DNA of 64,000 bases from NCBI RefSeq assembly GCF_003402535.2, contig NZ_AP025172.1, positions 1 to 64,000 of the forward strand. Direction: 5' to 3'. A program made the translations under genes and the position numbers. Shown here in pieces: positions 7,118-22,575 of the stretch. The notes beneath the pieces are model-generated. The model saw only the letters and a program-made list of their open reading frames with translations. It was not told where the DNA came from and made no database searches. Numbering within the stretch: position 1 is the stretch's first letter; every line of letters begins with the position of its first letter. This DNA is from Cupriavidus sp. P-10. Its GTDB lineage: Bacteria; Pseudomonadota; Gammaproteobacteria; Burkholderiales; Burkholderiaceae.

Positions 7118-7867
7118 TCAGTACGTGGCCCGGCCGCCGGACAAGTCGAAAACGGCACCGGTGCTGAACGTGCAGGCGCCGCTGCACAGCCACAGCGCCA
7201 GCGCGGCCACTTCATCCACGGTGCCCAGGCGTGCCATCGGACTCTTGTCGATCATGGTCTGCACATGCGCGGGCGACATCTGCGCCAGCAGCGGCGTCTC
7301 GATCGCGGCCGGGGCGATGGCGTTGACGCGGATCGCAGTCTTTGCCAGTTCCTTGCCCAGCGATTTGGTCAGCGCGATCACACCGGCCTTGGCGGCACTG
7401 TAGGCCGATGCATTGGGCGTGCCTTCCTTGCCCGCCAGCGACGCGATACTGACGATGCGCCCGTAGCCAGCGGCGGTCATGCGCGGCACGACATGCCGGC
7501 AGACGCGGTACACGCCGGTCAGGTTCACGTCGATGACGCGCTGCCAGACCTGGGGATCGAACTCGGCCAGTGGCATGGTTGGCCCGGCAAAGCCGGCGTT
7601 GTTGACCAGCACGTCGATGCGGCCGAAGCGCTGGTGCGTGGCGTCCGCAACGGCCGCGACGGCGGCGTCATCGGTCACGTCGACGCGCATGCCGGCGATG
7701 CCGTCGGCATCGGGCGCGGCCTGCAGGTCCCAGTTGACGACCTGGGCGCCGGCCCGTGCCAGTTCGCGCGCCACCGCCAGCCCGATGCCGCCGGTGGCGC
7801 CCGTGACCACGGCCACCGAGCCGGCAAAGTCGTAGCGGGCAGCGCCGCCTTGCATGCTGGCTGCCAT
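7118..7867 (-). CDS. Short-chain dehydrogenase/reductase
   Basis: This second SDR of the sugar-acid cluster has 249 residues. The nucleotide-binding motif is TGATGGIGLA (about residues 19-28), followed by NNAG near 92, catalytic Ser in IVSIASLAG and YSAAK near 155-160; the C-terminus FSTGAVFDLSGG is usual. Its upstream neighbour, the cupin gene, ends 2 bases before it, so they share a transcript. It is only distantly similar to the other SDR here, so the pair probably act at different steps. Alternatives are a generic 3-oxoacyl reductase; the genomic context favours a sugar alcohol or aldonate substrate. Confidence 0.9.
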   Translation of the reverse strand: MAASMQGGAARYDFAGSVAVVTGATGGIGLAVARELARAGAQVVNWDLQAAPDADGIAGMRVDVTDDAAVAAVADATHQRFGRIDVLVNNAGFAGPTMPLAEFDPQVWQRVIDVNLTGVYRVCRHVVPRMTAAGYGRIVSIASLAGKEGTPNASAYSAAKAGVIALTKSLGKELAKTAIRVNAIAPAAIETPLLAQMSPAHVQTMIDKSPMARLGTVDEVAALALWLCSGACTFSTGAVFDLSGGRATY

Positions 7868-7869
7868 GC

Positions 7870-8412
7870 TTACCTCACGAACTGGTCGACATAGCCGGCG
7901 CCCAGGCCGACAGCCTCATAGTGCTTGCGGCACATGTCGAGCTTGGTGAAGACATCTTCGTAGCCCATCGGCTTGCCCCACGGGTCGACGTAGTACATCA
8001 CGCCGTTGACCTGGAACATCGTGATCATTTCTTCGACATCCTCGGGCACGTAGAGCGTATGGGTCTCGCCCGGCGGCTCGAACACATAGCTGCCTTCGGT
8101 GGCGATCCAGTCGTGCTCGAGGTAGCGCCACCTTCCTTTCAGCACCATGCCATGGACCGCCTGAGGATGGCGATGGCGGGACAGCACGCCGGACTTGCGC
8201 ACGCGCAGCAGGTTCATCCAGTACCCCTGCGACACATTCAGGCACAGCGGCCGGAACCAGACGTTCTCGGCCTGCGGCACCCAGACGCGCTCGTCTTCGG
8301 GAATCGCGTTGGGCACGACGATTTCCTTCAGTGCTTCGGCAGGGTTGGGGTATTGGTAGGGCATCAGGGCCGGGTTGCCGCTGGCGTCCAGGCGCGCTTC
8401 ATTGGATTGCAT
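7870..8412 (-). CDS. Cupin protein, 2,4'-dihydroxyacetophenone dioxygenase-like
   Basis: This is a single-domain cupin of 180 residues resembling the 2,4'-dihydroxyacetophenone dioxygenase family of Fe(II) enzymes. The first cupin motif appears as SRHRHPQAVHGMVLKG with several His ligands, and the second as EPPGETHTLYVPED. The ATG at 8412 has an AGGAGA ribosome site 6-7 bases upstream; the open frame to 8460 runs back through the operator-like element. It is the first gene of the cupin-SDR-MFS-SDR-IclR transcript. In a sugar-acid cluster it may be an isomerase or epimerase-like cupin rather than a ring-cleaving enzyme, which is inference. Confidence 0.8.
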   Translation of the reverse strand: MQSNEARLDASGNPALMPYQYPNPAEALKEIVVPNAIPEDERVWVPQAENVWFRPLCLNVSQGYWMNLLRVRKSGVLSRHRHPQAVHGMVLKGRWRYLEHDWIATEGSYVFEPPGETHTLYVPEDVEEMITMFQVNGVMYYVDPWGKPMGYEDVFTKLDMCRKHYEAVGLGAGYVDQFVR

Positions 8413-8428
8413 GGGGTTCTCCTGTCTA

Positions 8429-8457
8429 TAATGTGGACATTTAGTCCTCAATATGGA
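8429..8457 (-). promoter_or_regulatory. 29-bp direct-repeat operator, cupin promoter
   Basis: Read on the minus strand the element is TCCATATTG, 11 bases, TCCACATTA. The same arrangement with the same spacing recurs at 12191-12219 before the Bug gene. The repeats are 20 bp apart, two helical turns, as expected for two dimers on one face of the DNA. It ends 17 bases before the cupin ATG, so it may overlap the -10 region. Confidence 0.6.
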
Positions 8458-8515
8458 CAAATTGTGGAAGTAATCGTGGGGCCTGTCAAGGTTTGTTGGA
8501 GCGGTTTGAAGCGGT

Positions 8516-8544
8516 AAAAATCACGCGGCCCGGCTTCGCCGGGC
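8516..8544 (-). terminator. Probable terminator after dgoA
   Basis: GCCCGGC (8528-8534) and GCCGGGC (8538-8544) form a perfect 7-bp stem with a 3-base loop. On the minus strand a run of five T residues follows 7 bases later (8516-8520). It lies 71 bases after the dgoA stop and separates the two transcripts of the cluster. Confidence 0.5.
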
Positions 8545-8614
8545 ATCGCGGAACGCGGACCAGGACTGGGGTGCAGGAAACAATCGCCAGGGATATGGAT
8601 AAAGGCCGCGCAGG

Positions 8615-9253
8615 CTACGGTTCGGCCACGGCGGGCGGTGCGATCCGACGCCATGCCCCAACGAACGCAGCCGCGTTTGCACCGACGGCATCGGCGTCCA
8701 GGCCCGGCTTGTACAGTGCCGAACCCAGTCCAAAGCCTGCGGCACCGGCACGCAGATAGGGCGCCAGCGCTTCCGGCGTGATACCCCCGACCGGCAGCAT
8801 GCGCGTGCCATGAGGCAGCACGCTGGCCCACGCCTTCAGTACCGCCGGAGGCAGCGACTCGGCCGGAAACAGCTTGAGTGCATCGGCGCCGTTCTGCAGT
8901 GCCGCGAATGCCTCGGTGGGCGTTGCCACGCCGGGTGCGCAAAGCATGCCGGCCGCCTTGGCGGCGCGCACCACTGCGGGATCTCCGTGCGGCATCACCA
9001 CCAGGCGTCCACCGGCCTGGCGAATGCCATCGACCTGCCCGGGCTGCGTCACGGTGCCGGCCCCGACGAGGACTTCAGGGCCAAGGGCTTCGGCCAGGCG
9101 CCGGATGCTTTCGAGCGGCTGGGGCGAATTCAATGGCACTTCGATGATGGCGAAGCCGCTCGCGACCAGCGCGCGGCCGATCGGTACGACTTCATCGGGC
9201 GTGACGCCGCGCAGGATAGCGACGAGCGGTAAGCGGGAGAAAAAGTCTTGCAT
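8615..9253 (-). CDS. dgoA: 2-dehydro-3-deoxy-6-phosphogalactonate aldolase
   Basis: This class I aldolase cleaves 2-keto-3-deoxy-6-phosphogalactonate to pyruvate and glyceraldehyde 3-phosphate. The 212-residue protein carries the KDPG/KDPGal aldolase landmarks: the general base Glu at 38 (FAIIEVPLNSP), the VGAGTV loop at 63-68, and the Schiff-base Lys at 127 (ALKLFPAE), with the phosphate-binding GGITPE loop beyond. LNSP after the Glu is typical of the galactonate branch. I take the ATG at 9253; a TTG two codons upstream is possible and neither has a strong ribosome site. It follows dgoK by 35 bases. Confidence 0.95.
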   Translation of the reverse strand: MQDFFSRLPLVAILRGVTPDEVVPIGRALVASGFAIIEVPLNSPQPLESIRRLAEALGPEVLVGAGTVTQPGQVDGIRQAGGRLVVMPHGDPAVVRAAKAAGMLCAPGVATPTEAFAALQNGADALKLFPAESLPPAVLKAWASVLPHGTRMLPVGGITPEALAPYLRAGAAGFGLGSALYKPGLDADAVGANAAAFVGAWRRIAPPAVAEP

Positions 9254-9288
9254 CGTCAAAATTGGTTGAACTGGAGAGGCGAGCGGTG

Positions 9289-10218
9289 TCAGCCGACAAG
9301 GCCTGCCTGCCTGGCGATGTACCAGAGCCCGGCCTCCGCCGCACCGGCGATGGCGGGGACATCGTCGATGCCGAAGCTGACGAACGCCCGGCGATAGCGG
9401 GCTACCAGGCTCGGCTCGCCAATCAGCACGACACGCGGTGCCGCTCGGTCCAGCATGCAGCGCAGCTCGTCGCCGATCAGCAGGCCCGACAGGTAGTCGA
9501 GGCTGGCGGATGCAGGCATTGCGCCGAGCAGCACGCGCGCACGCGCGGAGAACAGCAGGGGAGCGATACCACCTGCGTTTTCCTTTGCTGCCGAAACTCC
9601 CGCATCGAAAGCCGCGTCATCCGGCCCGGTCGTGGCAGCGCCTTGCTGCGCAAAGCGGCCGAGAATCGAGTGCTGTTGCAGGACCGCGAACAACTCGCCG
9701 GTCATGAAGGTCTGGCACGCAGTCAAGCGTGCTTCGGACACGTCGACCCACTTGCTGTGGGTGCCGGGCAAGACCACCCTGGCGCCATCGCACAGCGCCG
9801 GCTGCAACGCCATGGCGCCGATGACCTGCGTCTCTTCGCCGCGCATGACCTCCGGCCGTGGCCGGTCGAAGGACAGCCCGGGAACGATGTGCAGGATGCC
9901 GCCATCGCCGGACGGCACCCGCTGCAATGCGTTTGCGATTTCAGCCAGTCCGGCATTGCGGCAGTACGGCGCCTCCTGCCACCCCTGGGCGCTCCCGACC
10001 ATCCCGGAGGCGATCGCCGGCAACTCCGGCCTGGCGTGGCGCCAGTCGCCGACGACCTGCGCGAAGGTCTGCGCAAAGCCGCCGGGCGGCACGCGCATGA
10101 TGCCCATCGGCACCGTGCGCTGCGCGAGTACCGCGCCGGTGTCGCCAAGCAACAGCGCTCGTAGCGACGAGGTGCCCCAGTCCAGCGCAATGAGCCTGGC
10201 GGCCTCGATAGTGCTCAT
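9289..10218 (-). CDS. dgoK: 2-dehydro-3-deoxygalactonokinase
   Basis: This cytosolic kinase phosphorylates 2-keto-3-deoxygalactonate with ATP, making the substrate of the adjacent aldolase. The ASKHA-type phosphate loop LIALDWGTSSLRALL lies near residues 8-22, and PGTHSKWVDV, characteristic of DgoK, near 145. The ATG at 10218 is preceded by GGAGG 7 bases upstream and gives 309 residues; the longer frame to 10302 has no such signal. Order on the transcript is Bug receptor, RraA-like, dgoK, dgoA. No galactonate dehydratase gene accompanies them in the window. Confidence 0.94.
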   Translation of the reverse strand: MSTIEAARLIALDWGTSSLRALLLGDTGAVLAQRTVPMGIMRVPPGGFAQTFAQVVGDWRHARPELPAIASGMVGSAQGWQEAPYCRNAGLAEIANALQRVPSGDGGILHIVPGLSFDRPRPEVMRGEETQVIGAMALQPALCDGARVVLPGTHSKWVDVSEARLTACQTFMTGELFAVLQQHSILGRFAQQGAATTGPDDAAFDAGVSAAKENAGGIAPLLFSARARVLLGAMPASASLDYLSGLLIGDELRCMLDRAAPRVVLIGEPSLVARYRRAFVSFGIDDVPAIAGAAEAGLWYIARQAGLVG

Positions 10219-10288
10219 TGCCGGGCCTCCGGCCTTCGGCGCATGGCCGGGCGTTGCGCCTGCGCAGGCATGCAGCATGGCCTCATGC

Positions 10289-10966
10289 TCAGATCCGGCC
10301 AAACGTGGCTAGCAGGTCCTGGAACGTCTTTCCTTCCAGGATCAGCGCTCGCATGGCTTCTTCATTGCGCGCTATTGTCGTGGCGCGCTCGTAGACCTCG
10401 GCCAGGTTGGCCTGCGGCACGACCACGACGCCGATCTCGTCCGCAATCACAAGATCGCCCGGATTGACGATGACGCCGCCGCACGAGATTGGCACGTTGA
10501 TGGCCAGCGGCTCACGGCGCCCGCTCAGTGCGGTGTGGGCCTGACGCGGGCCGGACGCCTTGGCAGAGATCGGAAAGCCCAGGAACCTGGCTTCGTCGGT
10601 ATCGCGGCAGCTGCCGTCGATCACGGCGCCGACCACGCCGGCGTTTCGCGCCAGCCCGGTCATCAGGCCGCCCCAGATCGAGGTCTCGGTTTCGCCGAAG
10701 GCATCGATCACGATCACATCGCCTGGTCGGGCGAGGTCGAACACGTCCAGGCAATCGACAATGTCACCCGCACGCAGTTGTACGGTCAGCGCGGTGCCGA
10801 TGATCTTCTTGTCCGCGGCCTTGGGCTTGATATCGTGCCGCATGGTGCCAGCGCGCTCGAACGCATCGGAGACGACGCATGACAGCGACATGACCTCGGC
10901 CATGGACACAAACTTGGCGACCAGCGCCTGATCTACTGGCGGACTTGGGTTGACGACGATGCCCAT
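10289..10966 (-). CDS. RraA-like / HMG aldolase-family protein
   Basis: This 225-residue protein belongs to the RraA / 4-hydroxy-4-methyl-2-oxoglutarate aldolase fold. The hallmarks are visible: GAVIDGSCRDTDEARFLGFP carries the substrate-binding Arg-Asp, and NPGDLVIADEIGVVVVP is the metal-site region. Members are either divalent-metal aldolases/oxaloacetate decarboxylases or non-enzymatic RNase E inhibitors. Placement between a Bug receptor and dgoK favours an enzyme handling a 2-keto acid. It could substitute for a missing step of the sugar-acid route, but that is speculation. The start at 10966 has an AAGAGA site upstream. Confidence 0.85.
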   Translation of the reverse strand: MGIVVNPSPPVDQALVAKFVSMAEVMSLSCVVSDAFERAGTMRHDIKPKAADKKIIGTALTVQLRAGDIVDCLDVFDLARPGDVIVIDAFGETETSIWGGLMTGLARNAGVVGAVIDGSCRDTDEARFLGFPISAKASGPRQAHTALSGRREPLAINVPISCGGVIVNPGDLVIADEIGVVVVPQANLAEVYERATTIARNEEAMRALILEGKTFQDLLATFGRI

Positions 10967-11036
10967 CGATATTCTCTTTTGAAGTTGCTGGAAGCCGAAC
11001 AGACCCCAGGCGCGCTGCGCCTGGGCCAATGCGGTA

Positions 11037-12020
11037 CTACTTGTTGTTCAGGCCGACGCGCTCGATCAGCGACTTGAAGTAGGCGTTGTCCTTCGCCACC
11101 GCGGCTTTGAACTCGTCCTGGTCTGCATAAGCCAGTCCGAGGTTCTGCTTGTCCATCATTTCCTTGAGCGCTGGCTCGCGCGCCGTCTTGGCAATCGCCG
11201 CGCGCAGCACGCTGACCACTTCCGGCGGCGTATTCAGGGGCACGGCAATGCCGCGCCAGGTGCCGATCGACAGATCCACCTTGCTTTCCTTCAGGGTCGG
11301 CACGTTCTCGAAGCCCTTGACGCGCTTGTCCGACATGACGGCCAGCGTCTTCAGCTTGCCTGCGGCGACGTAGGGGTAGACCTCGGCCGGGCTCACCGTT
11401 ACCGCGTCGATATGGCCGCCAAGCAAAGCGAGCACCGCGGGGTTTCCGCCCTGGAATGGAATGTGGTTGAACTTCGTGCCGGTCTTGTCTTCCAGCGCGG
11501 CGGCGGCAAGGTGCCAGATGGAACCGTTGCCCGCATTTCCGATGCGGATCGTATTCGGGGCCTTCCTGGCCGCATCGAGAAAAGCTTCAACGGTCTTGTA
11601 GGGCGAGTCGGCGCGCACGGTGATCGCCGAAGGGTCGGCATTCAGTCGCGCGACCGGCATCAGGCTTTCGTATGTCAGCTTGGTCAGGCCAAGGTGCGGC
11701 ACGATAGCGATGTCGGCGGTCAGCAGCGAGAGCTTGTAGCCATCGGGCCTGGCGTTGGCCACCTCGGCCCAGCCAATCGCGCCGCTTGCGCCCGGCTTAT
11801 TGATCACGATGACGTTCTGGGGCAGGTGCTTGCGCGCCGATTCGGCAAAGGCCCGTGCCAGGGCGTCGGTGCCGCCGCCCGCCTGGAATGGCACGACCAG
11901 TTCGATGTTGTGGGTGGGATAGCTGGCGCTACCTTGCGCATAGCTGCCTGTGCTGGCGCTTGCCAGCAGAGCCATGCCGACGTGGATGGCACAGAAAAAG
12001 CGGGAGCCGAGGCGTTTCAT
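11037..12020 (-). CDS. Bug-family periplasmic binding protein (TctC-like), 1
   Basis: This is a tripartite-tricarboxylate-transporter receptor of the Bug family, 327 residues, exported to the periplasm by a signal peptide ending near residue 29 (SYAQG). Family marks are IELVVPFQAGGGTDALAR, VINKPGASGAIG, the DGYKLSLL segment and NHIPFQGGNPAVLALLGGHID. Bug proteins bind carboxylates or amides and either feed a TctAB permease or act in signalling. No TctA/TctB gene is nearby; the MFS permease of the same cluster may carry the substrate instead. GGAGA lies 7 bases before the ATG. It is the first gene of the RraA-dgoK-dgoA transcript, downstream of the direct-repeat element. Confidence 0.93.
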   Translation of the reverse strand: MKRLGSRFFCAIHVGMALLASASTGSYAQGSASYPTHNIELVVPFQAGGGTDALARAFAESARKHLPQNVIVINKPGASGAIGWAEVANARPDGYKLSLLTADIAIVPHLGLTKLTYESLMPVARLNADPSAITVRADSPYKTVEAFLDAARKAPNTIRIGNAGNGSIWHLAAAALEDKTGTKFNHIPFQGGNPAVLALLGGHIDAVTVSPAEVYPYVAAGKLKTLAVMSDKRVKGFENVPTLKESKVDLSIGTWRGIAVPLNTPPEVVSVLRAAIAKTAREPALKEMMDKQNLGLAYADQDEFKAAVAKDNAYFKSLIERVGLNNK

Positions 12021-12508: not shown

Positions 12509-13417
12509 CTATCGCATTGTCTCCAGCAGCGCGACCCTCAAAAACTCCCGCAACGCATCCGTTTGTGCGTCCGGCCCGGTGTCCGCTTTCCAGATCAGTC
12601 CGACATCCATGGACGGCAGCCGGTCTGAAAGGTTGCGGCGCAGGATGCGTTGCCCCTCCAATGACCAGGGGCGGTACACCAGATCCGACAGGATAGACAC
12701 GCCGCGCCCTGACGCCACCAGGCTGCGCACGGCTTCGATCGAGCAGCTTTGCAGGCGCACGCTTGGCGAGAGCCCGTACTGCCCCCAGTACTTGAGCACA
12801 GTGGAAATATGCTCGTCCATGTCGAGCAGGATGTAATCGTGCCGCGCCACGTCGGACAGGCTGATTTCCTCTTGCTGCATCAGTGGATGGTCAGGATGGC
12901 CCCATAGCTGCCGCGCCGACCGTAGCAGCGTTTCGCAGCCGACCTGATGCATCTCGGGCAAGTTCGAAACCAGCAGCAAGGCCAGGTCGAGTCGGCCCGC
13001 CCGGATCTCCGCTTCGATATCGCCACGCGGCTTCTCCAGGATCTCGAGTTCAAGCCGTGGAAACTTCTGCTCCAGAGCGGGCAACAGCTTGGGCAGGACA
13101 TAGGCCGTGATGGTCTCGGTGACGCCAAGGCGGATCGAGCCGGACATCGTGGTGGGCGTCACCGCGGCGGCGCTGACCGCATCGCGCACCGCATTGTCGA
13201 TTTGCTGGGCATGCCGCAGGAAGCGGATGCCGGCGGCGGTCAGCTTCACGCCGGCGGCGTGCCGGGAAAAGAGCGGGGCGCCCACGGCTTCCTCCAGCGC
13301 CTTGAGCGATGCGGTCATCGAAGACTGGGAGACGTGGCAGCGTTGCGCCGCTCGCGACACCTGTCCGGTCTCCGCGATGGCCACAAAGTGCTGTATCTGC
13401 TTCAGTGTCGGAAGCAT
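12509..13417 (-). CDS. LysR-family regulator, divergent from the molybdoenzyme gene
   Basis: This LysR-type regulator of 302 residues has an N-terminal helix-turn-helix (residues 5-60: FVAIAETGQVSRAAQRCHVS, then SMTASLKALEEAVGAPLF) and a two-lobed effector domain (SGSIRLGVTETITAYVLPKL). It is divergently arranged to the molybdopterin-reductase fusion with 97 bases between the start codons, the classic layout for a LysR activator of its neighbour. The intergenic DNA is A/T-rich with a CTATGAATTAGCTAT stretch that may be its site. It probably controls the fusion, imine-reductase and transporter genes. The inducer is unknown. Confidence 0.92.
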   Translation of the reverse strand: MLPTLKQIQHFVAIAETGQVSRAAQRCHVSQSSMTASLKALEEAVGAPLFSRHAAGVKLTAAGIRFLRHAQQIDNAVRDAVSAAAVTPTTMSGSIRLGVTETITAYVLPKLLPALEQKFPRLELEILEKPRGDIEAEIRAGRLDLALLLVSNLPEMHQVGCETLLRSARQLWGHPDHPLMQQEEISLSDVARHDYILLDMDEHISTVLKYWGQYGLSPSVRLQSCSIEAVRSLVASGRGVSILSDLVYRPWSLEGQRILRRNLSDRLPSMDVGLIWKADTGPDAQTDALREFLRVALLETMR

Positions 13418-13514
13418 CGATTTTTCCGATATTGCAATGTCAAAACTATGAATTAGCTATATCGCCCCATGCTAGCTAGCATCCAGCACGAATACAAGGT
13501 GTGGGAACGTGGCG

Positions 13515-16500
13515 ATGAGCGAAGTGGAAAAGAAGGGGTATTGCACGTTGTGCCGTTCTCGCTGCGGCACCGTCAACGTTGTCGAGGGCGAGACACTCGT
13601 TGCGGTCCGCCCCGACAGCGCACACCCCACCGGCAAGGCGATGTGCCTGAAGGGCAAGGCCGCGCCCGAACTGGTGCACAGCGCGGAGCGCATCCTGTAC
13701 CCCATGCGCAGGACCAGCCCCAAGGACGCCGCCGATCCGGGATGGGTGCGCATCTCGTGGGAAGAGGCCCTCGATGAAATTGCCGGGCGCCTGGTGCAGG
13801 CGCGCGCCACGCTCGGGGCCGAGTCGGTTGCCTTCGCGGTGACGACACCCAGCGGCACGCCGTTGTCGGACAGCATCGACTGGATCGAACGCCTGGTCCG
13901 CCTCTATGGCAGCCCCAACACCTGCTACGCCACCGAGATCTGCAACTGGCACAAGGACTTTGCGCACGCCTTCACCTTTGGCTGCGGCATGCCGACGGCG
14001 GACTACCGCAATGCCGGGCTGATCCTCCTCTGGGGACACAACCCCACCAACACGTGGCTGTCGCAGGCGGAGGCCATCGGCGCGGGGCGGGCAGCCGGCG
14101 CCCGGCTCATCGTGGTGGACCCGCGCCAGACCAGCCTGGCTGCAGATGCCGACCAGTGGCTGCGTGTCAAGCCTGGCAGCGATACCGCGCTGGCCATGGC
14201 GCTGGCCAACCTGATGATCGAGGCCAATGCCTTCGATATCGATTTCGTCCGGCAATGGACCAACGGGCCGATGCTGGTGCGCAAGGACAACGGCGCCTTC
14301 CTGCGCGGGCACGACATCGGCCTGGACGATGCGGAAAGCCTGGTGGCGTGGGACGCACGCGGGCAGCGGGCGGTTGCGGCGGGCCAGATGCGCGATGAGC
14401 CGGAGCGCTTCGCGTTGCGCGGGACGTTTGCCGTGGCGCTGGCCGGTACCCTGGAAGGGGAAACCGTGCTGTGCCAGCCGGCGTTCGATCTCTATGCGGC
14501 AGAGTGCGCGTGCTATCCGGCCGACCGCGCGGCCGCGCTGACGTGGATTGCGGAAGGCGACATCCGCCACGCGGCAAGCATGATCGGCGCGGCACGTAGC
14601 GTTGCGTATCACGCCTGGTCAGGCGTGGGGCAGCATGAGAACGCGACCCAGACGGATCGCGCCATTGCCTGCCTCTATGCCCTGACCGGCAGCTTCGACC
14701 GCCGCGGCGGCAACCGCATCTATCGCAAGCCGCCATTTAGCGCCGTCAGCCGCTTCGACCTGTTGCACCCCGACCAGGCCCGCAAGGCGCTGGGACTGGA
14801 CGAGCGGCCGCTGGGCCCGCCGGCGCAGGGCTGGGTGACCGCGCGCGACCTGTATCGCGCGATCACGGACAAGCAGCCGTATGCGGTGACGTCGCTGGTC
14901 GCGTTCGGGACCAATCTGCTGCTCTCGCAACCGGATGTCGCCATGGGCGAGCAGGCGCTGCGCGAGCTGGCGTTCTATGTGCATTGCGACCTGTTCGAGA
15001 ACCCGAGCGCGAAGTACGCGGACATCCTGCTGCCGGTGAATACGCCCTGGGAGCGCGAAGGCCTGCGCATCGGCTTTGAAGTGTCGGCCGAGGCCGAGCA
15101 ACTGGTGCAGTTGCGCCAGCGCATGGTTGCGCCGCGTGGCGAGGCCCGCTCGGACAATGACATTGTGTTTGACCTGGCCACCCGAATCGGGCTGGGCGAA
15201 GCATTCTTCGGCGGCAGCCTGGAAGCCGGCTGGGACTACATGCTGGCGCCGATGGGGTTGACCGTGGCGGCGCTGCGCCGATCCCCGGAAGGCGTACGTG
15301 TTCCGGTCGAAGACGTCGAGATGAAATATCGCGTCGACAACTCCGGCCGGCCCTTCAACACACCGACAGGCCTGGTCGAACTGTACTCCGAACGCCTGCT
15401 CAGGCATGGCTACCCGCCCTTGCCAGGGCTGCCCGCATCGGCGTGTGACGACGGGAAGGGTGATTGGGGGCCGTTCCCCTACCTGATGACGTCGGCGAAA
15501 AATGGCTACTACTGCCACAGCCAGCAGCGGGGGGTGGCGTCCTTGCGCCGCAAGGCGATGCTGCCCCAGCTCGATATCTCCGCGGAAATCGCCGCGGCCC
15601 GCGCGATTCGCAGTGGGGACCCCGTCAGGGTGACGACGCCATCCGGCAGTGCCGTGTTCACGGCACGCGTCCATGCCGGCCTCCACCCCGCCGTGGTTGT
15701 CGGCGAGTACGGCTGGTGGCAGCGCTGCGATGCCATGGGGCAGGACCCGATCGCCGTGCGTGGCGCGGGTAGCGCGAACTTCAACGGGCTGATTGATGCC
15801 CGCCGCCAGGACCCGATCAGTGGTTCGTCGCCGCTGCGGTCCTACCGCTGCCGCGTGGAGCGCGAGACTGGTTTCGATATCCGGCGCAGGCGCTGGGAGG
15901 GCTTCCGCCCGTTCCGCGTGGTCGCACTGCACAAGGAAGCGGCCGATGTCACGACCGTGCGGATGGCGCCGGTCGACGGCTGCGGGCTCCCGGACTTCCT
16001 GCCGGGCCAGCACGCGACCGTCAAGCTCTTCGTCGGTGCCGAGCGGCAGGAGGTCATCCGCTCATACTCGATGACTGGGCCCTCGGCCGTGCCGCGCCGC
16101 AGGGACTACTCGATTTCGGTGCGGCACGCGAAAGCACGGCTGGCCAGCGGCGAAGAAGTGTCTGGCTTCGCCTCATCGTTTATCAACACGCGTCTGGCGG
16201 TGGGCGACATCGTCGAGTTGCGCGCGCCAGGAGGCAGCTTCGTCATGCCGACCCGCACGGCAAGGCCACTGGTCCTGGTCGCCGGAGGCATTGGCATGAC
16301 GCCGTTCATCAACCTGCTCGAATCGCTGGTTGGCCGGCAGGAGCCGCCCACGATCCTGCTGCTGTATGCGAACCAGAACGGCAGCATGCACGCCTTCAGG
16401 CACCGGATCCGTGAACTGGAAGCGTTGACTCCCACGCTGAAGGTGGTCAATTTTTATGACGCACCGGTCGATAGCGACGTGCCCGGAAAAGACTTCCAGG

Positions 16501-16943
16501 TGCATGGGCGCGTATCTGCCGATGCGGTCCCGGACTCGCTCCTTGCCCTGCGTCCGCTGATTTACATGTGCGGCCCGCCGGCAATGATGACGGCGTTTGC
16601 CGAGGGCATGACGGCCCGGGGCATTCCGCGTTTCGATATCCATCGGGAAATCTTCCGCTCGCCGGCGCTGCCGCGGGTCGAACCAGGACAGGCGTTCCTG
16701 GTCCGCTTCCGCAAGTCAAACGTCTCGCACGCGTGGCGCTCCGAACTTGGCCCGTTGCTCGGTTTCGCCGAGGCGCGCGGCATCTGCCTGCCCAGTGGTT
16801 GCCGGGTCGGGCAGTGCGAGAGCTGCGCGGTCAGGATCGTTTCCGGATCGGTACACCACTTGCATGGCGAGGCCCCCGACGACGCGGGGGTTTGCCTGGC
16901 GTGTCAGGCCGTGCCGGCAAGCGACCTGGTCCTGGATGCATGA
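13515..16943 (+). CDS. Molybdopterin oxidoreductase fused to FAD/NAD reductase and 2Fe-2S ferredoxin domain
   Basis: This 1142-residue protein joins three modules. Residues 1-770 are a DMSO-reductase-superfamily molybdopterin oxidoreductase with an N-terminal 4Fe-4S motif (Cys 10, 13, 17, 44); Cys 143 in ATEICNWH is the likely Mo ligand, and GHNPTNT and the VVDPRQT segment are cofactor-binding. Residues about 790-1030 are a ferredoxin-NADP-reductase-type domain with flavin motif RSYSMTGP, VAGGIGMTPF for nucleotide and YMCGPPAMM. The C-terminus (about 1060-1142) is a plant-type 2Fe-2S domain, CLPSGCRVGQCESC with the last Cys in CLACQ. It has no signal peptide, so it is probably cytosolic and can take electrons from NAD(P)H to the Mo site, or the reverse. 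The ATG at 13515 has GGGA 8 bases upstream. The substrate is unknown; I saw no gap or frameshift. Confidence 0.93.
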   Translation: MSEVEKKGYCTLCRSRCGTVNVVEGETLVAVRPDSAHPTGKAMCLKGKAAPELVHSAERILYPMRRTSPKDAADPGWVRISWEEALDEIAGRLVQARATLGAESVAFAVTTPSGTPLSDSIDWIERLVRLYGSPNTCYATEICNWHKDFAHAFTFGCGMPTADYRNAGLILLWGHNPTNTWLSQAEAIGAGRAAGARLIVVDPRQTSLAADADQWLRVKPGSDTALAMALANLMIEANAFDIDFVRQWTNGPMLVRKDNGAFLRGHDIGLDDAESLVAWDARGQRAVAAGQMRDEPERFALRGTFAVALAGTLEGETVLCQPAFDLYAAECACYPADRAAALTWIAEGDIRHAASMIGAARSVAYHAWSGVGQHENATQTDRAIACLYALTGSFDRRGGNRIYRKPPFSAVSRFDLLHPDQARKALGLDERPLGPPAQGWVTARDLYRAITDKQPYAVTSLVAFGTNLLLSQPDVAMGEQALRELAFYVHCDLFENPSAKYADILLPVNTPWEREGLRIGFEVSAEAEQLVQLRQRMVAPRGEARSDNDIVFDLATRIGLGEAFFGGSLEAGWDYMLAPMGLTVAALRRSPEGVRVPVEDVEMKYRVDNSGRPFNTPTGLVELYSERLLRHGYPPLPGLPASACDDGKGDWGPFPYLMTSAKNGYYCHSQQRGVASLRRKAMLPQLDISAEIAAARAIRSGDPVRVTTPSGSAVFTARVHAGLHPAVVVGEYGWWQRCDAMGQDPIAVRGAGSANFNGLIDARRQDPISGSSPLRSYRCRVERETGFDIRRRRWEGFRPFRVVALHKEAADVTTVRMAPVDGCGLPDFLPGQHATVKLFVGAERQEVIRSYSMTGPSAVPRRRDYSISVRHAKARLASGEEVSGFASSFINTRLAVGDIVELRAPGGSFVMPTRTARPLVLVAGGIGMTPFINLLESLVGRQEPPTILLLYANQNGSMHAFRHRIRELEALTPTLKVVNFYDAPVDSDVPGKDFQVHGRVSADAVPDSLLALRPLIYMCGPPAMMTAFAEGMTARGIPRFDIHREIFRSPALPRVEPGQAFLVRFRKSNVSHAWRSELGPLLGFAEARGICLPSGCRVGQCESCAVRIVSGSVHHLHGEAPDDAGVCLACQAVPASDLVLDA

Positions 16944-16977: not shown

Positions 16978-17931
16978 ATGCTGAACATCGATGCGCCCAC
17001 CACCCAGGCGTCGCTGCCATTCGACCGCCTGATCCCCGCACTGAACGATGCGTTTGCGTCCGGATGCGAGGTGCCGCTCAGGCACAACCACACGGTCGCC
17101 GCCAAGCCCGGCACGCCCGGCGATTGCGGCACGCTGCTGCTGATGCCCGCCTGGAGCGTCTCCAGTGGTTATATGGGCGTCAAGACGGTCTGCGTCTACC
17201 CCGGCAACAACCGGCGCAAGCTGCCCGGGCTGTATTCGACCTACATCCTCTACAGCGTCGAAACCGGCAGGCCGCTGGCCCTGATTGACGGCAATGAAAT
17301 TACCTCCAGGCGCACGGCCGCCGCGTCGGCGCTTGGCGCCTCCTTCCTGAGCCGCAAGGACGCCCGCTCGATGCTGGTGCTTGGCGCAGGGCGGGTCGCC
17401 AGCCTGCTGCCTTATGCCTATCGGAGCGTGCGCGAGATCGAGCGGGTGGGCGTATGGGACATCAACGTGGACCAGGCGCATCGGCTGGCTGACCGCCTTC
17501 GTGCCGACGGATTCGATGCCCATGTCGTCAGCCGCCTGGACGCGAAGACCTGTGCGGTCGATGTCATCAGCGCGGCAACGCTGTCCACCGAGCCGCTGAT
17601 CCGCCGCGAGCACCTCAGCCCCGGCACCCACGTCGACCTGATCGGCGGGTTTACGCCGGCAATGCGCGAAGCCGACGACGCGTGCTTTGACGGCACCGCG
17701 GTATTTGTCGATACCGAAGAGGCGGCAAGCAAGGCCGGCGACCTGCTCTCGCCCATTGCCCGGGGCGTGCTGGCGCGGACGGATATCAGGAGCGATCTTG
17801 CCGGGCTCTGCCGCGCCGAGCACGTGGGCAGGCGCTCAGCGCAGGAGATCACGGTGTTCAAGGCGGTCGGGACCGCGCTGGAAGACCTGGCTGCGGCGGC
17901 CATGTGCTTCGAAGCCGTAGCGAACCATTAG
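16978..17931 (+). CDS. Ornithine cyclodeaminase/mu-crystallin-family imine reductase
   Basis: This is an NAD(P)-binding protein of the ornithine cyclodeaminase/mu-crystallin family, closest by eye to delta1-pyrroline-2-carboxylate reductases. The N-terminal region VPLRHNHTV and TLLLMPAW, then GVKTVCVYPGN and ALIDGNEITSRRTAAASALG form the substrate side; VLGAGRVAS near residue 127 is the dinucleotide fold. The C-terminal ITVFKAVGTALEDLAAA is conserved in the family. I prefer the ATG at 16978 (317 residues); ATGs at 16936 and 16945 overlap the end of the preceding gene, so translation may be coupled. Lying directly after the molybdoenzyme, it may reduce or deaminate a cyclic imino acid. Confidence 0.85.
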   Translation: MLNIDAPTTQASLPFDRLIPALNDAFASGCEVPLRHNHTVAAKPGTPGDCGTLLLMPAWSVSSGYMGVKTVCVYPGNNRRKLPGLYSTYILYSVETGRPLALIDGNEITSRRTAAASALGASFLSRKDARSMLVLGAGRVASLLPYAYRSVREIERVGVWDINVDQAHRLADRLRADGFDAHVVSRLDAKTCAVDVISAATLSTEPLIRREHLSPGTHVDLIGGFTPAMREADDACFDGTAVFVDTEEAASKAGDLLSPIARGVLARTDIRSDLAGLCRAEHVGRRSAQEITVFKAVGTALEDLAAAAMCFEAVANH

Positions 17932-17962: not shown

Positions 17963-19411
17963 ATGAAAGAGACAACAGGGATGGCAATTGCGGATGCCGG
18001 GAAGCCGCAGCAGGGCGGGTTGGAAGGCCTGGCGATACGCGTGACCGACTGGTCGGAACGGTGGTTTCCCGACTCTTATATCTTCGCGGCCATTGCCGTG
18101 GTGGTGGTCGCGGCGGGCGCCATGCTGGCGGGCGCACCGGCGCCGGCCGTGGCGAAAGCCTTCGGCGACGGCTTCTGGAGCCTGATTCCATTCACGATGC
18201 AGATGGCCGTGGTCGCGATCGCCGGCTACGTTGTGGCCGTCTCGCCCCCCGCATCGATGCTGATCGCCCGGCTGGCCTCGCTGCCGCGCACGGCGCGCGG
18301 CGCTGTAGCCTTCGTGGCCCTTGTCAGCCTGCTGACTTCGCTGCTCAACTGGGCGATCAGCCTGATATTCAGTGGCTTGCTGGTGCGTGCCATTGCCAGG
18401 CGCCGCGGCTTCCGGGTGGATTACCGCGCGGCCAGTGCCTCTGCCTATCTCGGCATGGGCGCGACGTGGGCGCTGGGGCTGAGTTCCTCGGCCGCACAAT
18501 TGCAGGCCAATCCTGCCAGCCTGCCCAAGTCGCTGTTGGATATCACCGGGGTGATCCCGTTCTCGGACACAATTTTCCTGTGGCAATCGATGGCGATGAC
18601 TGCGGTGCTGATCGTCGCATCATTGCTGATCGCATACTTCTCGGCGCCGACCGAGGACCGCGCGCGCACGGCGGCCGACATGGGCGTCGATCTGAATGAT
18701 GCGGACGAAGGCCTTTCGCGGCCGTCACGGCCAGGCGAGTGGCTGGAGTACAGCCCCATCCTGACACTGCTGCTGGTCGCCATGGGGGCAAGCTGGCTCT
18801 ACCAGGAGTTCTCCGCCAAGGATCCAATTCTTGCCATCTCTAACCTGAATACCTACAACTTCCTGTTCCTGCTGCTGGGCATGCTGCTGAACTGGCGGCC
18901 AAAGCGGTTCTTGCGCGCCGTTGCGAGGTCGGTGCCATCAACGTCCGGCGTCCTGATCCAGTTCCCGTTGTATGGCGGCATCGCCTTTATCCTGACCAAG
19001 GCGACCGGCGTCGATGGCGCCACTCTTTCCCACCATCTGGCGTCTGCCTTTGTCTCGATGGCGACCACGGAGTCGTTTTCCGCCGTGATGGGGATCTACT
19101 CCGCCGTGCTGGGGTTCTTTGTCCCTTCCGGCGGTGGCAAGTGGATCATCGAGGCGCCCTACGTCATGCAGGCCGCCAACGAACTGAAGGTGCACCTGGG
19201 ATGGGCAGTGCAGGTCTATAACGCTGCCGAAGCGCTACCGAACCTGATCAATCCGTTCTGGATGCTGCCATTGCTGGGTGTGCTCGGTATCCGGGCCAAA
19301 GATGTGGTTGGCTTTACGTTCACCCAGTTGCTTGTTCACACGCCGCTGGTGCTGCTTATGCTTTGGGCGTTCGCGAGGACGCTTCCTTATCATGCCCCAG
19401 TGATGCCTTGA
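17963..19411 (+). CDS. atoE: Short-chain fatty acid transporter, AtoE family
   Basis: This integral membrane protein of 482 residues belongs to the AtoE short-chain fatty acid transporter family. It has about 12 hydrophobic segments; AtoE-like stretches include ERWFPDSYIFA near the start, LLTSLLNWAISLIFSGLL and FFVPSGGGKWIIEAPYVM. The ATG has an AAGGAG ribosome site 7 bases upstream and lies 31 bases after the imine-reductase stop, so the three genes probably form an operon. It likely imports the carboxylate substrate of the pathway or exports an acid product. AtoE proteins normally carry acetoacetate or butyrate, which fits no other gene here, so the real substrate may differ. Confidence 0.9.
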   Translation: MKETTGMAIADAGKPQQGGLEGLAIRVTDWSERWFPDSYIFAAIAVVVVAAGAMLAGAPAPAVAKAFGDGFWSLIPFTMQMAVVAIAGYVVAVSPPASMLIARLASLPRTARGAVAFVALVSLLTSLLNWAISLIFSGLLVRAIARRRGFRVDYRAASASAYLGMGATWALGLSSSAAQLQANPASLPKSLLDITGVIPFSDTIFLWQSMAMTAVLIVASLLIAYFSAPTEDRARTAADMGVDLNDADEGLSRPSRPGEWLEYSPILTLLLVAMGASWLYQEFSAKDPILAISNLNTYNFLFLLLGMLLNWRPKRFLRAVARSVPSTSGVLIQFPLYGGIAFILTKATGVDGATLSHHLASAFVSMATTESFSAVMGIYSAVLGFFVPSGGGKWIIEAPYVMQAANELKVHLGWAVQVYNAAEALPNLINPFWMLPLLGVLGIRAKDVVGFTFTQLLVHTPLVLLMLWAFARTLPYHAPVMP

Positions 19412-19512
19412 GGGCTGGCGGACGGACGCTGGCCACGTTCCACGTCTTACTTGCGGTCCGTCAGCATGGCAAGATTCACACTCTTGCTATGTTGCACGCC
19501 AGGAGCGTTGTA

Positions 19513-20967
19513 GTGATCACCGTCCAGGAGCTGCTCGACACGGATTCGTTGGGCTTGAAAGGGATTGCCGGCCTTGCCGGCACGCACCGGTTAATCAACT
19601 GGGCGCACGCAGTCGACCTTCCGGACCCATGGCGCTGGGTGAGTGCCGGCAACCTGGTGATGACGACTGGCACTGGCATTCCCAGGTCGCCAAAAGAGCA
19701 GGTGCACTGGCTTGAGCTGCTTGCTCAGACCAATTGCAGCGCTTTGGTGGTCGCGCCTCAAGCCGGTGCGCCAAAATTGTCGAAACAGATGCTCGAGACC
19801 GCCGAGCGCCTGATGTTCCCTGTCCTTGGCGCCAGCTTCGAGCTTGAATTCGTGAAGCTGGCGCACCACGTCATTGAAAGCGTCCTGCAGGCGCAGCGCG
19901 AGAGTCTCAAAGCCAGCCAACGCCTCTTCCAAACCTATGCAGAGGCCATGCGTGACCACGCGGATTTCTCGGGCCGGCTTTCCGTCCTGGCAGGAAATCT
20001 AGGAATAAGCCTGAGCATCGAGGATGCCGCCTCCGGCGTGACGCTATTTGCCTCCGACAGTTCACCGCACCGGAAGCCGGAGCAATCCGCCACTGCCGAG
20101 AGCGTCGCCATCGGCGGGCGCACAAGAGCAAACTTGGTCATACGCCGCAAAAAGCAGAAGGCTCCTGAGGACCCTGTGGTTGTCCGCTCCCTTGTCGGTC
20201 TGCTAGCGGTGGAGCTTGAACGACTGATGATTCATCGCGACGACCAGCGTGAAGAGGGGGCGGACCTGCTTCGAAGCTTGTTGAAAGACGATACGGATTT
20301 CGCTTTTGTTCGGCCAATGCTGGAGCGACGCGGCCTGACGGGTACTCTGGTCTGTCTGGCCATCCAGCCAGCCAAGGCAGGCCCATGGTCACCTGCCGAA
20401 ATACACCAGGCGCCAGGGCTTCAAAACAGAACGCCGCTGCTCTTTCAGGATGATGTGCTTCTGGCGCTCTCCATGGATGAGCAGGAGGCGCTGGATGCCA
20501 TTTTGCGCAGCCTTGGCGACGGGACCACGATTGGAATAAGCGGCCCCATTTCTGTGGCGACAGGCTTCCGGGAGAGCGTTCGTCAGGCGCGGCTTGCCCT
20601 TGTCCAGGCCATCGAACGGGAGACCACCGCCCTCCGGTACGGCGAGGCTGAGACCGGGCTCATTATGGCGCCAAAATCACTTGCCGAGGCCCGAGCCTTG
20701 GTGGGGCGGTATCTCGGGCCACTGATTGAACATGATCGGGTCCATGAGACCTGTCTATTGACGACCCTGATGCGGTTCCTGACAAACGATGGGAATTGGA
20801 AGGCGACGGCATTCGATCTGGGTATCCATCGCCAGACCCTGGTGTACCGCCTCAAGTTGGTCGAGCAACTGACCGGCCTCAAGCCCACCAGCACAGACGG
20901 AACGGCGCGTTTCTGGATCGCGTTGACCGCGGGCAGGAATGCCAGGCTGCTCCCCGAGCAAGCCTGA
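19513..20967 (+). CDS. PucR/CdaR-family transcriptional regulator
   Basis: This is a PucR-type regulator: an N-terminal PucR domain (TVQELLDTDSLGLKGIAGLAG through LVVAPQAGAPKLSKQM), a central sensor-like region around 160-380 and a C-terminal helix-turn-helix (NWKATAFDLGIHRQTLVYRLKLVEQLTG). Such proteins control purine, amine or amino-acid catabolism. I chose the GTG at 19513, which has AGGAG exactly 7 bases upstream and starts at the domain boundary (484 residues). It lies between the AtoE gene and the permease-oxidase-cupin genes and probably controls the latter. Confidence 0.9.
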   Translation: MITVQELLDTDSLGLKGIAGLAGTHRLINWAHAVDLPDPWRWVSAGNLVMTTGTGIPRSPKEQVHWLELLAQTNCSALVVAPQAGAPKLSKQMLETAERLMFPVLGASFELEFVKLAHHVIESVLQAQRESLKASQRLFQTYAEAMRDHADFSGRLSVLAGNLGISLSIEDAASGVTLFASDSSPHRKPEQSATAESVAIGGRTRANLVIRRKKQKAPEDPVVVRSLVGLLAVELERLMIHRDDQREEGADLLRSLLKDDTDFAFVRPMLERRGLTGTLVCLAIQPAKAGPWSPAEIHQAPGLQNRTPLLFQDDVLLALSMDEQEALDAILRSLGDGTTIGISGPISVATGFRESVRQARLALVQAIERETTALRYGEAETGLIMAPKSLAEARALVGRYLGPLIEHDRVHETCLLTTLMRFLTNDGNWKATAFDLGIHRQTLVYRLKLVEQLTGLKPTSTDGTARFWIALTAGRNARLLPEQA

Positions 20968-21015
20968 TACTCCGGAAGGTGCGGACAGTAAAGGGGGCTT
21001 CCAACCTTTCATACA

Positions 21016-21025
21016 TTTGTACAAA
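21016..21025. promoter_or_regulatory. TTTGTACAAA palindrome before the permease gene
   Basis: A 10-bp perfect palindrome lies 105 bases upstream of the permease ATG in the 162-base gap after the PucR gene. It could be an operator; a match this short is weak on its own. Confidence 0.25.
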
Positions 21026-21129
21026 GGCGACCCGCGACATCATCTTTTTTCGCATAGGCAGTGGTTCGTTGCCTGCTTAGTATTCCTTCGCATAACAGTC
21101 ACAACGACTGATGACGAAGGAGACAAGCA

Positions 21130-22545
21130 ATGCCTATCCAATCAGAGCATGACCCCCGCCTCAAGCGGGTGCTCAAAACTCGCCACATCAGCATGCTGGC
21201 GCTCGGCGGCGTCATTGGCGCCGGCCTGTTCGTCGGTTCCAGTTCAGTGATTGCCACGACTGGACCGGCCGCCTTCATTACCTACGCCATTACCGGGGTA
21301 ATTGTCGGTCTCATCATGCGCATGCTCGGCGAAATGGCTGCTGCGCGACCATCAAAGGGATCGTTCGTGGACTATTCCCGCATGGCATTCGGCGACATCG
21401 CCGGGTTCTCCACGGGCTGGCTCTACTGGTACTTCTGGGTGATCGTCGTCGGGTTCGAAGCAGTAGTCGGGGGTCAGATCATTAACGGCTGGTTACCGCA
21501 CATCCCGGTCTGGATGATAGCTCTGGGCCTCATGGTCCTGATGACCTTGCTTAACCTGCTGTCGGTCGATTCCTTCGGGGAAGCCGAATACTGGTTCGCA
21601 GGTGTCAAGGTGGCCGCCATCGTCGTGTTCCTGGTAATCGCCGGCGCTTATGTGTTCAAGCTGTGGCCCGGCTCCACGGCGGATTTCGGCAATCTCACGC
21701 AGCATGGCGGACTTCTCCCTCACGGTACGTTGGCCTTGTTCTCCGGCGTCGTATCGGTAATCTTCTCGATGACCGGGGTGGAGGTGGCAACCATCGCTGC
21801 CGCTGAGTCTGACAATCCCTCCCAAAACATTCGCCGTGCCGTCAATACCGTGATGGCGCGCATCCTCGTCTTCTTCGTTCTCTCAACACTCTTCATCGTT
21901 GTCGCGCAACCTTGGACTGAAATCGTCCCAGGCAAGTCGCCTTTCGTTACAACGCTGCAGAAGGTCGGCATCCCGGGCGCGGCCGATTTGCTGACCGCGG
22001 TCATCCTGGTTGCTGTGCTGTCTGTGCTTAACGCCGGTCTCTACACGTCCTCGCGTCTGTTGCACGTCCTTAGCTCCAACCACGAGGCCCCCGCCTGCTT
22101 GGCCAGGAAGAGCCGTCGCGGCGTGCCAGTCTGGGGGGTTGCCACCTCAACCCTGGTGGGATACGGGTGCGTGGTGATTGCAGCCTTGTGGCCGGATACG
22201 GTGTTCCAGTTCCTGCTCGATTCGTCTGGCGCGGTCTTCCTCTTCGTCTACCTGATGATCTGCCTCTCTCAACTGAAGCTGCGCAAGCAGTGGGAACGCG
22301 AGGGCACGCTGAAATTCAAGATGTGGCTTCACCCCTGGCTGCCCCTTCTCGTCACTGCGGCCATCATTGCGGTGCTGGTCAGCATGGGCATCAACCCTGC
22401 CACCCGCCTAAGCCTGGGCCAGTGCTTGATCGCAATCGTCACCATCGTCCTTGCATATGGCGTGATGAAGCTGGTGCGATCGGACAAGCCTCAAGCCCTT
22501 AATCATGTCGAGCCCGCTCGCCAGGCCAGCAGCCTTGGCAAGTAA
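21130..22545 (+). CDS. Amino-acid permease, APC superfamily (GABA/proline type)
   Basis: This is an APC-superfamily permease of 471 residues with about 12 membrane helices. The N-terminal LKTRHISMLALGGVIGAGLFVGSS is the signature of the AAT group (GabP, AnsP, ProY), and GVEVATIAAAESDNP in helix 6 is part of the transport core. The ATG at 21130 has AAGGAG upstream. An FAD oxidase and a cupin follow at 30 and 13 bases, so the product is likely an importer of the amine or amino acid that the oxidase attacks. Substrate choice among GABA, asparagine, proline or an omega-amino acid cannot be made by eye. Confidence 0.92.
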   Translation: MPIQSEHDPRLKRVLKTRHISMLALGGVIGAGLFVGSSSVIATTGPAAFITYAITGVIVGLIMRMLGEMAAARPSKGSFVDYSRMAFGDIAGFSTGWLYWYFWVIVVGFEAVVGGQIINGWLPHIPVWMIALGLMVLMTLLNLLSVDSFGEAEYWFAGVKVAAIVVFLVIAGAYVFKLWPGSTADFGNLTQHGGLLPHGTLALFSGVVSVIFSMTGVEVATIAAAESDNPSQNIRRAVNTVMARILVFFVLSTLFIVVAQPWTEIVPGKSPFVTTLQKVGIPGAADLLTAVILVAVLSVLNAGLYTSSRLLHVLSSNHEAPACLARKSRRGVPVWGVATSTLVGYGCVVIAALWPDTVFQFLLDSSGAVFLFVYLMICLSQLKLRKQWEREGTLKFKMWLHPWLPLLVTAAIIAVLVSMGINPATRLSLGQCLIAIVTIVLAYGVMKLVRSDKPQALNHVEPARQASSLGK

Positions 22546-22575
22546 GCCTTACCTCCGTCGAAGTGAGATTCTCAA

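Follow-up and report, generated by a model that had tools for sequence, protein, structure and literature searches.

The 64,000-nucleotide stretch of DNA analysed here (the window: positions 1 to 64,000 of contig NZ_AP025172.1 of Cupriavidus sp. P-10) contains an operon in which a fusion gene for a molybdenum oxidoreductase is followed by genes for an imine reductase of the ornithine cyclodeaminase (OCD) family and a transporter of the AtoE type, behind a divergent gene for a LysR-type regulator (Table 1). This arrangement had been proposed from an inspection of the bare letters (hereafter, the sequence-only reading), and the coordinates and the domain scans agree with it. Judging from its sequence, the fusion protein is a member of the dimethyl sulfoxide (DMSO) reductase superfamily equipped with its own reductase for reduced nicotinamide adenine dinucleotide (phosphate), NAD(P)H, with a predicted metal centre and a predicted flow of electrons.

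Table 1. Features of the fusion locus in the window (residue numbers are those of the fusion protein; Mo-bisPGD, molybdenum bis(pyranopterin guanine dinucleotide); FAD, flavin adenine dinucleotide)
Feature	Position	Strand	Basis
LysR-type regulator, divergent; putative control of the operon	12509..13417	-	Pfam HTH_1 and LysR_substrate; LysR relative within 3 kb in 46 of 80 loci
Divergent promoter/operator region, 97 bp	13418..13514	.	
Mo-bisPGD oxidoreductase/NAD(P)H reductase fusion gene, 1142 residues; proposed pyrrole-2-carboxylate reductase	13515..16943	+	domains, relatives, invariant sites, fold
4Fe-4S site, residues 10-44: Cys10, Cys13, Cys17, Cys44	13542..13646	+	Molybdop_Fe4S4; 4 of 4 Cys invariant in 59 sequences
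Mo-bisPGD catalytic part, residues 59-774 (Molybdopterin and Molydop_binding)	13689..15836	+	Pfam
Signature E-I-C143-N-W-H-K-D-x-A-H, residues 141-151; likely molybdenum/tungsten ligand Cys143	13935..13967	+	alignment
FAD/NAD(P) reductase part, residues 793-1048: R849-x-Y851-S852, G925-x-G927-x-T929-P930	15891..16658	+	
Plant-type 2Fe-2S domain, residues 1081-1134: Cys1096, Cys1101, Cys1104, Cys1130	16755..16916	+	Fer2; 4 of 4 Cys invariant in 59 sequences
OCD-family imine reductase, 317 residues; proposed delta1-pyrroline-2-carboxylate to L-proline	16978..17931	+	NF004793, 423.7 bits (cut-off 322)
AtoE/short-chain-fatty-acid-type transporter, TIGR00366-like; proposed substrate uptake	17963..19411	+	PF02667, 294 bits (gathering score 27)

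The frame of the fusion gene is free of stops over all of its 1142 residues; an alternative in-frame GTG start at 13509 would add 2 more. The Pfam domains Molybdop_Fe4S4 (residues 7-55), Molybdopterin (59-556) and Molydop_binding (657-774) and, in the C-terminal part, NAD_binding_1 (921-1028) and Fer2 (1081-1134; 39.4 bits against a gathering score of 21, with the Cx4Cx2C...C pattern present) all score above their gathering thresholds, and the combination of Molybdopterin, Molydop_binding and an N-terminal 4Fe-4S domain places the protein in the DMSO reductase superfamily. Thus, Molybdopterin, Molydop_binding, NAD_binding_1 and Fer2, which the sequence-only reading had anticipated, were recovered, but the FAD-binding part was not called: PF00970 is absent from the Pfam scan of the window protein and present in many close homologues. 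In the fold comparison, residues 795-1049 match a flavohaemoglobin-type FAD/NAD domain, and this part carries what we take to be the FAD motif (RxYS) and the nucleotide motif (GxGxTP), so that motifs and fold together assign it to the ferredoxin-NADP reductase superfamily, as a flavohaemoglobin-type FAD/NAD(P)H reductase.

Relatives of the fusion are encoded in 298 genome stretches of GTDB, 80 of which were retained (loci L001 and so on, from Burkholderiales, Pseudomonas, Rhizobiales, other Proteobacteria and Actinobacteria); all 80 match the fusion over almost its full length, with 47-82% identity in the best segment. The alignment that underlies both the structural model and the statements on invariance comprises the query and a hand-picked 58 of these 80 (59 sequences). 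Across it, the four cysteines of the 4Fe-4S site, the four of the 2Fe-2S domain and the cysteine that probably binds the metal do not vary, nor do the motifs for FAD and NAD, in line with the self-contained design suggested earlier; within the signature, E141, C143-D148, A150 and H151 are invariant. Cys143 pairs with a cysteine in polysulfide reductase and in acetylene hydratase, presumably the metal ligand of each. The predicted model has low confidence in the 2Fe-2S cluster loop (1096-1103).

In a large protein set, 2528 of the 7991 scored candidates match the fusion at E<=1e-3. PF00384, PF01568, PF00175 and PF00111 are all present in each of the best 120 of the 2528 matches (query included), and the matches beyond these may include unfused relatives. 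Because the fusion is conserved across relatives, all 120 listed homologues having the main domains, it is no product of a mistaken join or sequencing fault near residue 770, and the single frame with 4Fe-4S/Mo-bisPGD, FAD/NAD reductase and 2Fe-2S parts claimed from the letters is upheld by Pfam and fold alike. The nearest named homologue among the matches listed is from C. yeoncheonensis (92%), and in the protein matches listed this enzyme family is named by its domains alone. Within the window's own family, the fusion is found at E<=1e-150 in 38 of the 299 genomes, the window's genome included, and is thus an accessory trait; relatives at E<=1e-100 are also present in 38 plasmid records, 24 of which cover at least 80% of the query.

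The neighbours seen in the window recur across the 80 loci, which answers the homologue search that the sequence-only reading had put forward as a check. By tblastn (the best match in each locus, covering 40% or more of the query), an OCD-family gene lies within 3 kb of the fusion gene in 53 loci (50 at >=40% identity) and an AtoE-type gene in 58 (53 at >=40%); one or the other is found in 66 loci, and both, somewhere in the locus, in 45. The counts were taken from tblastn because the mechanical gene calls missed the OCD gene in several loci, and they are lower bounds given that 11 of the 80 loci have less than 3 kb of flank on one side. The association spans Proteobacteria and Actinobacteria with a variable gene order: the AtoE gene is 5' of the fusion in Variovorax, Alcaligenes and Bordetella trematum, the OCD gene is 5' of it in Rhodoferax, Comamonas, Xanthobacter and Azorhizobium, and the OCD gene is 3' of the AtoE gene in some Caballeronia and Pseudomonas.

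The window transporter itself is, by sequence, a divergent AtoE relative: it scores 294 bits against the gathering score of 27 for Pfam SCFA_trans and misses the TIGR00366 cut-off (288.2 against 575.75). Where the usual AtoE gene is missing, the transport genes that adjoin the fusion are branched-chain/urea-type ATP-binding cassette (ABC) genes (L031 and L039 by scan; L050, L055 and L069 by cluster membership), polyamine-type ABC genes (L067 by scan, L074 by cluster), a major facilitator superfamily (MFS) gene (L062) or AtoE-type genes with 28-35% identity to that of the window (L029, L056, L065, L066 and L072). No sigma-70 consensus was found between the LysR gene and the fusion gene.

In a phylogeny of the fusion protein with 93 members (80 loci, 4 second copies, 8 plasmid copies and the window), which stems from a quick search without bootstrap and has long end branches for L029, L072, L090, L100, L101 and L104, the OCD label (56 rows with the gene within 3.5 kb) appears in both halves and in 14 of the 14 rows of the window's clade. 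The label changes 15 times, with 14 changes forced by supported branches, against a mean of 29 for shuffled labels, and none of the 500 shufflings yielded a number as low. Neighbour clustering of the 80 loci and the window gave four core clusters and a regulator cluster (13 loci), and beyond these no cluster present in more than 7 loci. Neither this clustering nor a scan of 72 neighbours against Pfam (65 of the 136 listed from OCD-less loci and 7 hand-picked, six from L088-L090 and one from L069) yielded a third conserved operon enzyme; among the 25 commonest of the 99 families in the scan, those with more than one member are ABC transporter, LysR, AraC-type, AAA, MFS, HlyD and TOBE.

The probable chemistry is indicated by the OCD protein, which passes the cut-off of NF004793, an NCBIfam equivalog named bifunctional delta1-pyrroline-2-carboxylate/delta1-piperideine-2-carboxylate reductase, as do the OCD proteins of L061, L067 and L069. 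In L016, L017 and L071 (Pseudomonas/Stutzerimonas), its place is taken by an OCD protein 30% identical to that of the window; those of L016 and L071 (449.7 and 448.4 bits; L017 was outside the scan) pass the cut-off of 400 for NF045512, a second family with the same named activity. That a divergent OCD protein of the same named activity stands beside the same molybdenum enzyme argues well for the fusion making a substrate common to both; from these sequence comparisons, pyrroline-2-carboxylate is most likely the product of the fusion, and the OCD protein, which attains the family score, is the putative delta1-pyrroline-2-carboxylate reductase. Pyrroline-2-carboxylate reductases of the OCD superfamily fall into several divergent groups and yield L-proline (PMC4113996, PMC5144071). 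The second enzyme of the operon passes an NCBIfam cut-off named for this activity; in the hydroxyproline pathways, however, 3-hydroxyproline dehydratases supply the imine, with no molybdenum enzyme in that role. With six of the eight PF02615 proteins encoded in the genome of the window as queries, the third known kind of pyrroline-2-carboxylate reductase, that of the malate/lactate dehydrogenase type, gave no hit (E<=1e-5) in the 80 loci, in L087-L090 and L097-L104 or in the window.

In three lineages (3 of 80 loci), genes of proline catabolism lie no more than 7 kb from the module. In Zobellella (L029), a PutA gene (4486-8103, minus strand; 1452 bits against a cut-off of 747) is separated from the LysR gene by an Lrp-type gene; in Xanthobacter (L055), a PutA gene (1206 bits) is followed on the same strand by ABC-type genes, the OCD gene and the fusion; and in Rhodococcus (L061), a gene of the proline dehydrogenase family and pruA lie ~6.6-9.2 kb 3' of the fusion and ~4 kb 3' of the AtoE gene, with the delta1-pyrroline-5-carboxylate dehydrogenase above its cut-off. 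A near copy of L061 on the R. opacus plasmid pR1CP1 is annotated with genes, in this order, for GntR, the fusion, OCD, TIGR00366, proline dehydrogenase, pruA, PucR and NAD-glutamate dehydrogenase. Poisson estimates, which assume 1.2 copies per genome, genomes of 5-7 Mb and independent loci, give ~0.24-0.34 proline-gene loci per 80 by chance and P = 0.002-0.005 for three. Proline had been proposed as the end product before the R. opacus proline dehydrogenase was met; that plasmid case prompted the search of the 80 loci, so that the value without Rhodococcus (P = 0.025-0.046 for L029 and L055 alone) is the fairer figure. The genome of the window has a single match to the proline dehydrogenase family, on another contig.

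Taken together, these data make it probable, if only slightly so, that the operon imports pyrrole-2-carboxylate, the conjectured substrate, and converts it to L-proline in two NAD(P)H-dependent steps. The AtoE-like transporter, of a type that could suit a small monocarboxylate such as this, would bring in the substrate. In the first step, a hydride would pass from NAD(P)H to FAD and single electrons from there, via the 2Fe-2S and the 4Fe-4S clusters, to a cysteine-ligated molybdenum (or tungsten) bisPGD centre, which would put two electrons and two protons on the pyrrole ring to give delta2/delta1-pyrroline-2-carboxylate, with no need for ATP or a separate partner protein. In the second step, the OCD reductase would convert delta1-pyrroline-2-carboxylate to L-proline and thereby pull the unfavourable ring reduction, and proline would be turned into glutamate by ordinary catabolism via proline dehydrogenase; the LysR protein is the likely sensor of the inducer and regulator. 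Besides the core, nothing other than transporters and regulators is found in more than 7 loci, which suggests that the first step runs from the imported compound directly to pyrroline-2-carboxylate, and pyrrole-2-carboxylate, the simplest precursor two electrons away from that product, appears to be the best candidate. With no other gene cluster in more than 7 loci, the product apparently feeds into general metabolism. By rough thermochemistry from gas-phase values, reducing a pyrrole to a pyrrolidine with four electrons from NADH gains a few tens of kJ/mol provided that the amine is protonated, and the value for the first two electrons lies close to zero or above it; on this estimate, an unfavourable first step would explain the linked imine reductase.

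The sequence-only reading had suggested catabolism or reduction of a nitrogen-containing or cyclic carboxylic acid. That core is supported by the OCD cut-off, the replacement of one OCD family by another and the proline genes, which also narrow its list of substrates to pyrrole-2-carboxylate as the best candidate; general S- or N-oxides, which were on the list, have become less likely. Its suspicion of an undescribed pathway fits the open literature searched, which yielded neither an account of such a route nor a substrate known for this architecture, although papers elsewhere may hold one.

Several observations weigh against pyrrole-2-carboxylate as the substrate and proline as the product. 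No gene names pyrrole-2-carboxylate, whose selection appeals to simplicity, and both OCD families (NF004793 and NF045512) are named for piperideine-2-carboxylate as well. The retrieved stretch contains no OCD gene in 27 of the 80 loci (6 of these 27 have less than 3 kb of flank on one side); in the 23 OCD-less genomes searched, a close OCD gene was found elsewhere (E<=1e-40) in 7 and not in the other 16, and a PF02423 member was present in 19 and absent from 4. A clade of enterobacterial and marine copies, represented by seven rows of the tree (L045-L048, L097, L101 and L102), has neither OCD nor AtoE genes; the three plasmid copies examined lie among metal-resistance genes (L097 and L102) or near transposition genes (L101). 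Divergent copies, 43-47% identical, in four Burkholderiaceae genomes (L087-L090) have other neighbours and no OCD gene. Such partnerless and divergent copies may have other specificities or be lone passengers. In L039 and L062, enzymes of nitro compounds adjoin the fusion, and these lineages maybe act on a different substrate class. Finally, no proline dehydrogenase gene lies near the fusion in the window and in 77 of the 80 loci, and the proline dehydrogenase of L061 is below the NCBIfam cut-off (212 against 500).

Some details of these loci can be added. L097 is the Klebsiella plasmid NZ_CP043927.1, and identical or near-identical copies of the partnerless clade occur in Leclercia, Klebsiella, Alteromonas and Thalassolituus. 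Among the divergent copies, L087 retains an AtoE relative (55%); three of the four genomes (G249, G062 and G236) hold a closer copy too, and G295 has this copy only. The nitro-compound genes are an MFS transporter and a nitroreductase in L062 (6846-8941) and a nitronate monooxygenase in L039 (13465-14442).

The same product could arise by other routes. The fusion might reduce an N-oxidised relative of proline (a cyclic nitrone, N-hydroxyproline or an oxime), not the pyrrole ring, to pyrroline-2-carboxylate; N-oxide reduction is classic chemistry of the DMSO reductase superfamily, the OCD families and proline genes apply equally to this product, and the nitronate monooxygenase and nitroreductase genes of L039 and L062 would be in keeping with it. 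We nevertheless consider this route unlikely: the known S/N-oxide reductases (DMSOR, TorA, BisC) have a serine metal ligand where the fusion has an invariant cysteine, their family scores are not approached (bisC_fam, 123 bits against a cut-off of 1018; TorA, 68 against 1465), and N-oxidised prolines are, in our opinion, probably rarer than pyrrole-2-carboxylate. The TorA score also bears on a general reductase of nitrate, S-oxides or other oxyanions that lies beside an amino-acid operon by chance, as superfamily membership and the mobile enterobacterial copies without partners (two of the three examined among metal-resistance genes) might suggest; the similarly low scores for the nitrate reductase NasC (NF047855; 122.7 against 1100) and the selenate reductase YnfE (125 against 1675) and the recurrence of the OCD link across the whole tree make it very improbable. 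Named superfamily members in general can be set aside, the fusion falling far short of the cut-offs of all 25 NCBIfam models listed (of the 46 matched).

A little less likely than the N-oxide route, and better than chance proximity, is a reductive dehydroxylase of hydroxypyrrole- or hydroxypyrroline-2-carboxylate analogous to the catechol dehydroxylases (Dadh and relatives of Eggerthella). These remove a hydroxyl while the ring stays aromatic, and we know of none whose electrons are supplied by a fused FAD/NAD domain. According to PMC7028382, the molybdenum-dependent catechol dehydroxylases act reductively on aromatic compounds and are most closely related to acetylene hydratase, which is the nearest fold here and the only link by which they can be likened to the fusion. 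Genes of the racemase/hydroxyproline epimerase family are present in L010 (19706-23399, minus strand, downstream of the operon, together with aldehyde dehydrogenase-like and D-amino-acid dehydrogenase-like genes) and L039 (322-1320, minus strand), where they might supply pyrrole-2-carboxylate or related compounds. However, these are 2 of the 80 loci, with the genes 6-9 kb away, the L010 protein is below the cut-off of every named function listed, and the hydroxyproline routes of PMC4113996 have no need for such a step. A six-ring version of the pathway (picolinate or dihydropicolinate to piperideine-2-carboxylate and then to pipecolate) draws on the bifunctional names of both OCD families and has a chance as slim as that of the general reductase: the catabolic genes near the module in three lineages are those of proline (no search was made for pipecolate genes), and picolinate needs four electrons before the imine is reached. 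Least probable is the reverse direction, in which pyrroline-2-carboxylate would be oxidised by NAD+ to pyrrole-2-carboxylate and the latter exported by the transporter. By the rough estimate above, the first step taken alone goes downhill toward the aromatic ring, with NAD+ as oxidant, but the two-step sum runs toward proline, proline-degrading genes lie nearby, and in several loci AtoE is replaced by uptake-type ABC systems with substrate-binding proteins (branched-chain/urea- and polyamine-type).

Among characterized enzymes, acetylene hydratase of Pelobacter acetylenicus (2e7z) has the fold nearest to that of the modelled molybdenum part, with a cysteine at the metal-ligand position in both. 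The fusion is not an acetylene hydratase proper: the position of Asp13, which we take to be the catalytic residue, next to the second cluster cysteine, is Arg14 here, at least 90% conserved in the 59 sequences. Moreover, acetylene hydratase lacks a fused reductase and, to our knowledge, is not a net redox enzyme, whereas the gene neighbours of the fusion point to an imine product. Polysulfide/thiosulfate reductase PsrA (2vpw) differs from the fusion in that it acts on a sulfur compound and belongs to a complex of separate subunits coupled to quinol. The substrate proposed here is shared by two unrelated proteins that decarboxylate or oxygenate it instead of reducing it: a Rhodococcus two-component monooxygenase reportedly oxygenates pyrrole-2-carboxylate, and the prenylated-flavin decarboxylase HudA/PA0254 decarboxylates it (PMC7976604).

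The genes on either side of the operon in the window appear to be separate. Downstream of the AtoE gene, positions 19480-24322 (plus strand) encode a PucR-type regulator (scanned), followed by an amino-acid permease, an FAD-dependent oxidoreductase and a cupin (by eye); these were rejected as operon parts, being unmatched in the 80 loci save for one 25% match of the FAD oxidoreductase in L051. The proline genes of R. opacus pR1CP1 likewise have a gene of the PucR type next to them. On the other side, an operon-like run at 7870-12020 (minus strand) with genes for a cupin, a 2-keto-3-deoxygalactonokinase and an RraA-like aldolase (scanned) and a 2-keto-3-deoxy-6-phosphogluconate-type aldolase and a tripartite-tricarboxylate receptor (by eye) resembles sugar-acid catabolism and is unrelated to the fusion.

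Extended to the family as a whole, the proposal would be of a widespread NAD(P)H-fed, ATP-independent, single-chain molybdenum/tungsten bisPGD dearomatising reductase that, in Proteobacteria and Actinobacteria, takes pyrrole-2-carboxylate via L-proline to glutamate, a claim that we hold to be about evenly poised between right and wrong. We know of no ring reduction of this sort in the DMSO reductase superfamily. Aromatic rings are usually reduced at the expense of ATP or with very strong reductants, unless oxygen is used to avoid the step; if NADH alone suffices, with the pull of an imine reductase, this would be a simple way round, and the single-chain enzyme would lend itself to the study of Mo-bisPGD chemistry on heteroaromatics. 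If the proposal is correct, a large family so far named by domains only would gain its first substrate, and further ring reductases would be in store among its mobile and divergent relatives. Pyrrole-2-carboxylate is a product of hydroxyproline and sugar breakdown, and the pathway would then explain how soil bacteria recycle it with the nitrogen kept in an amino acid.

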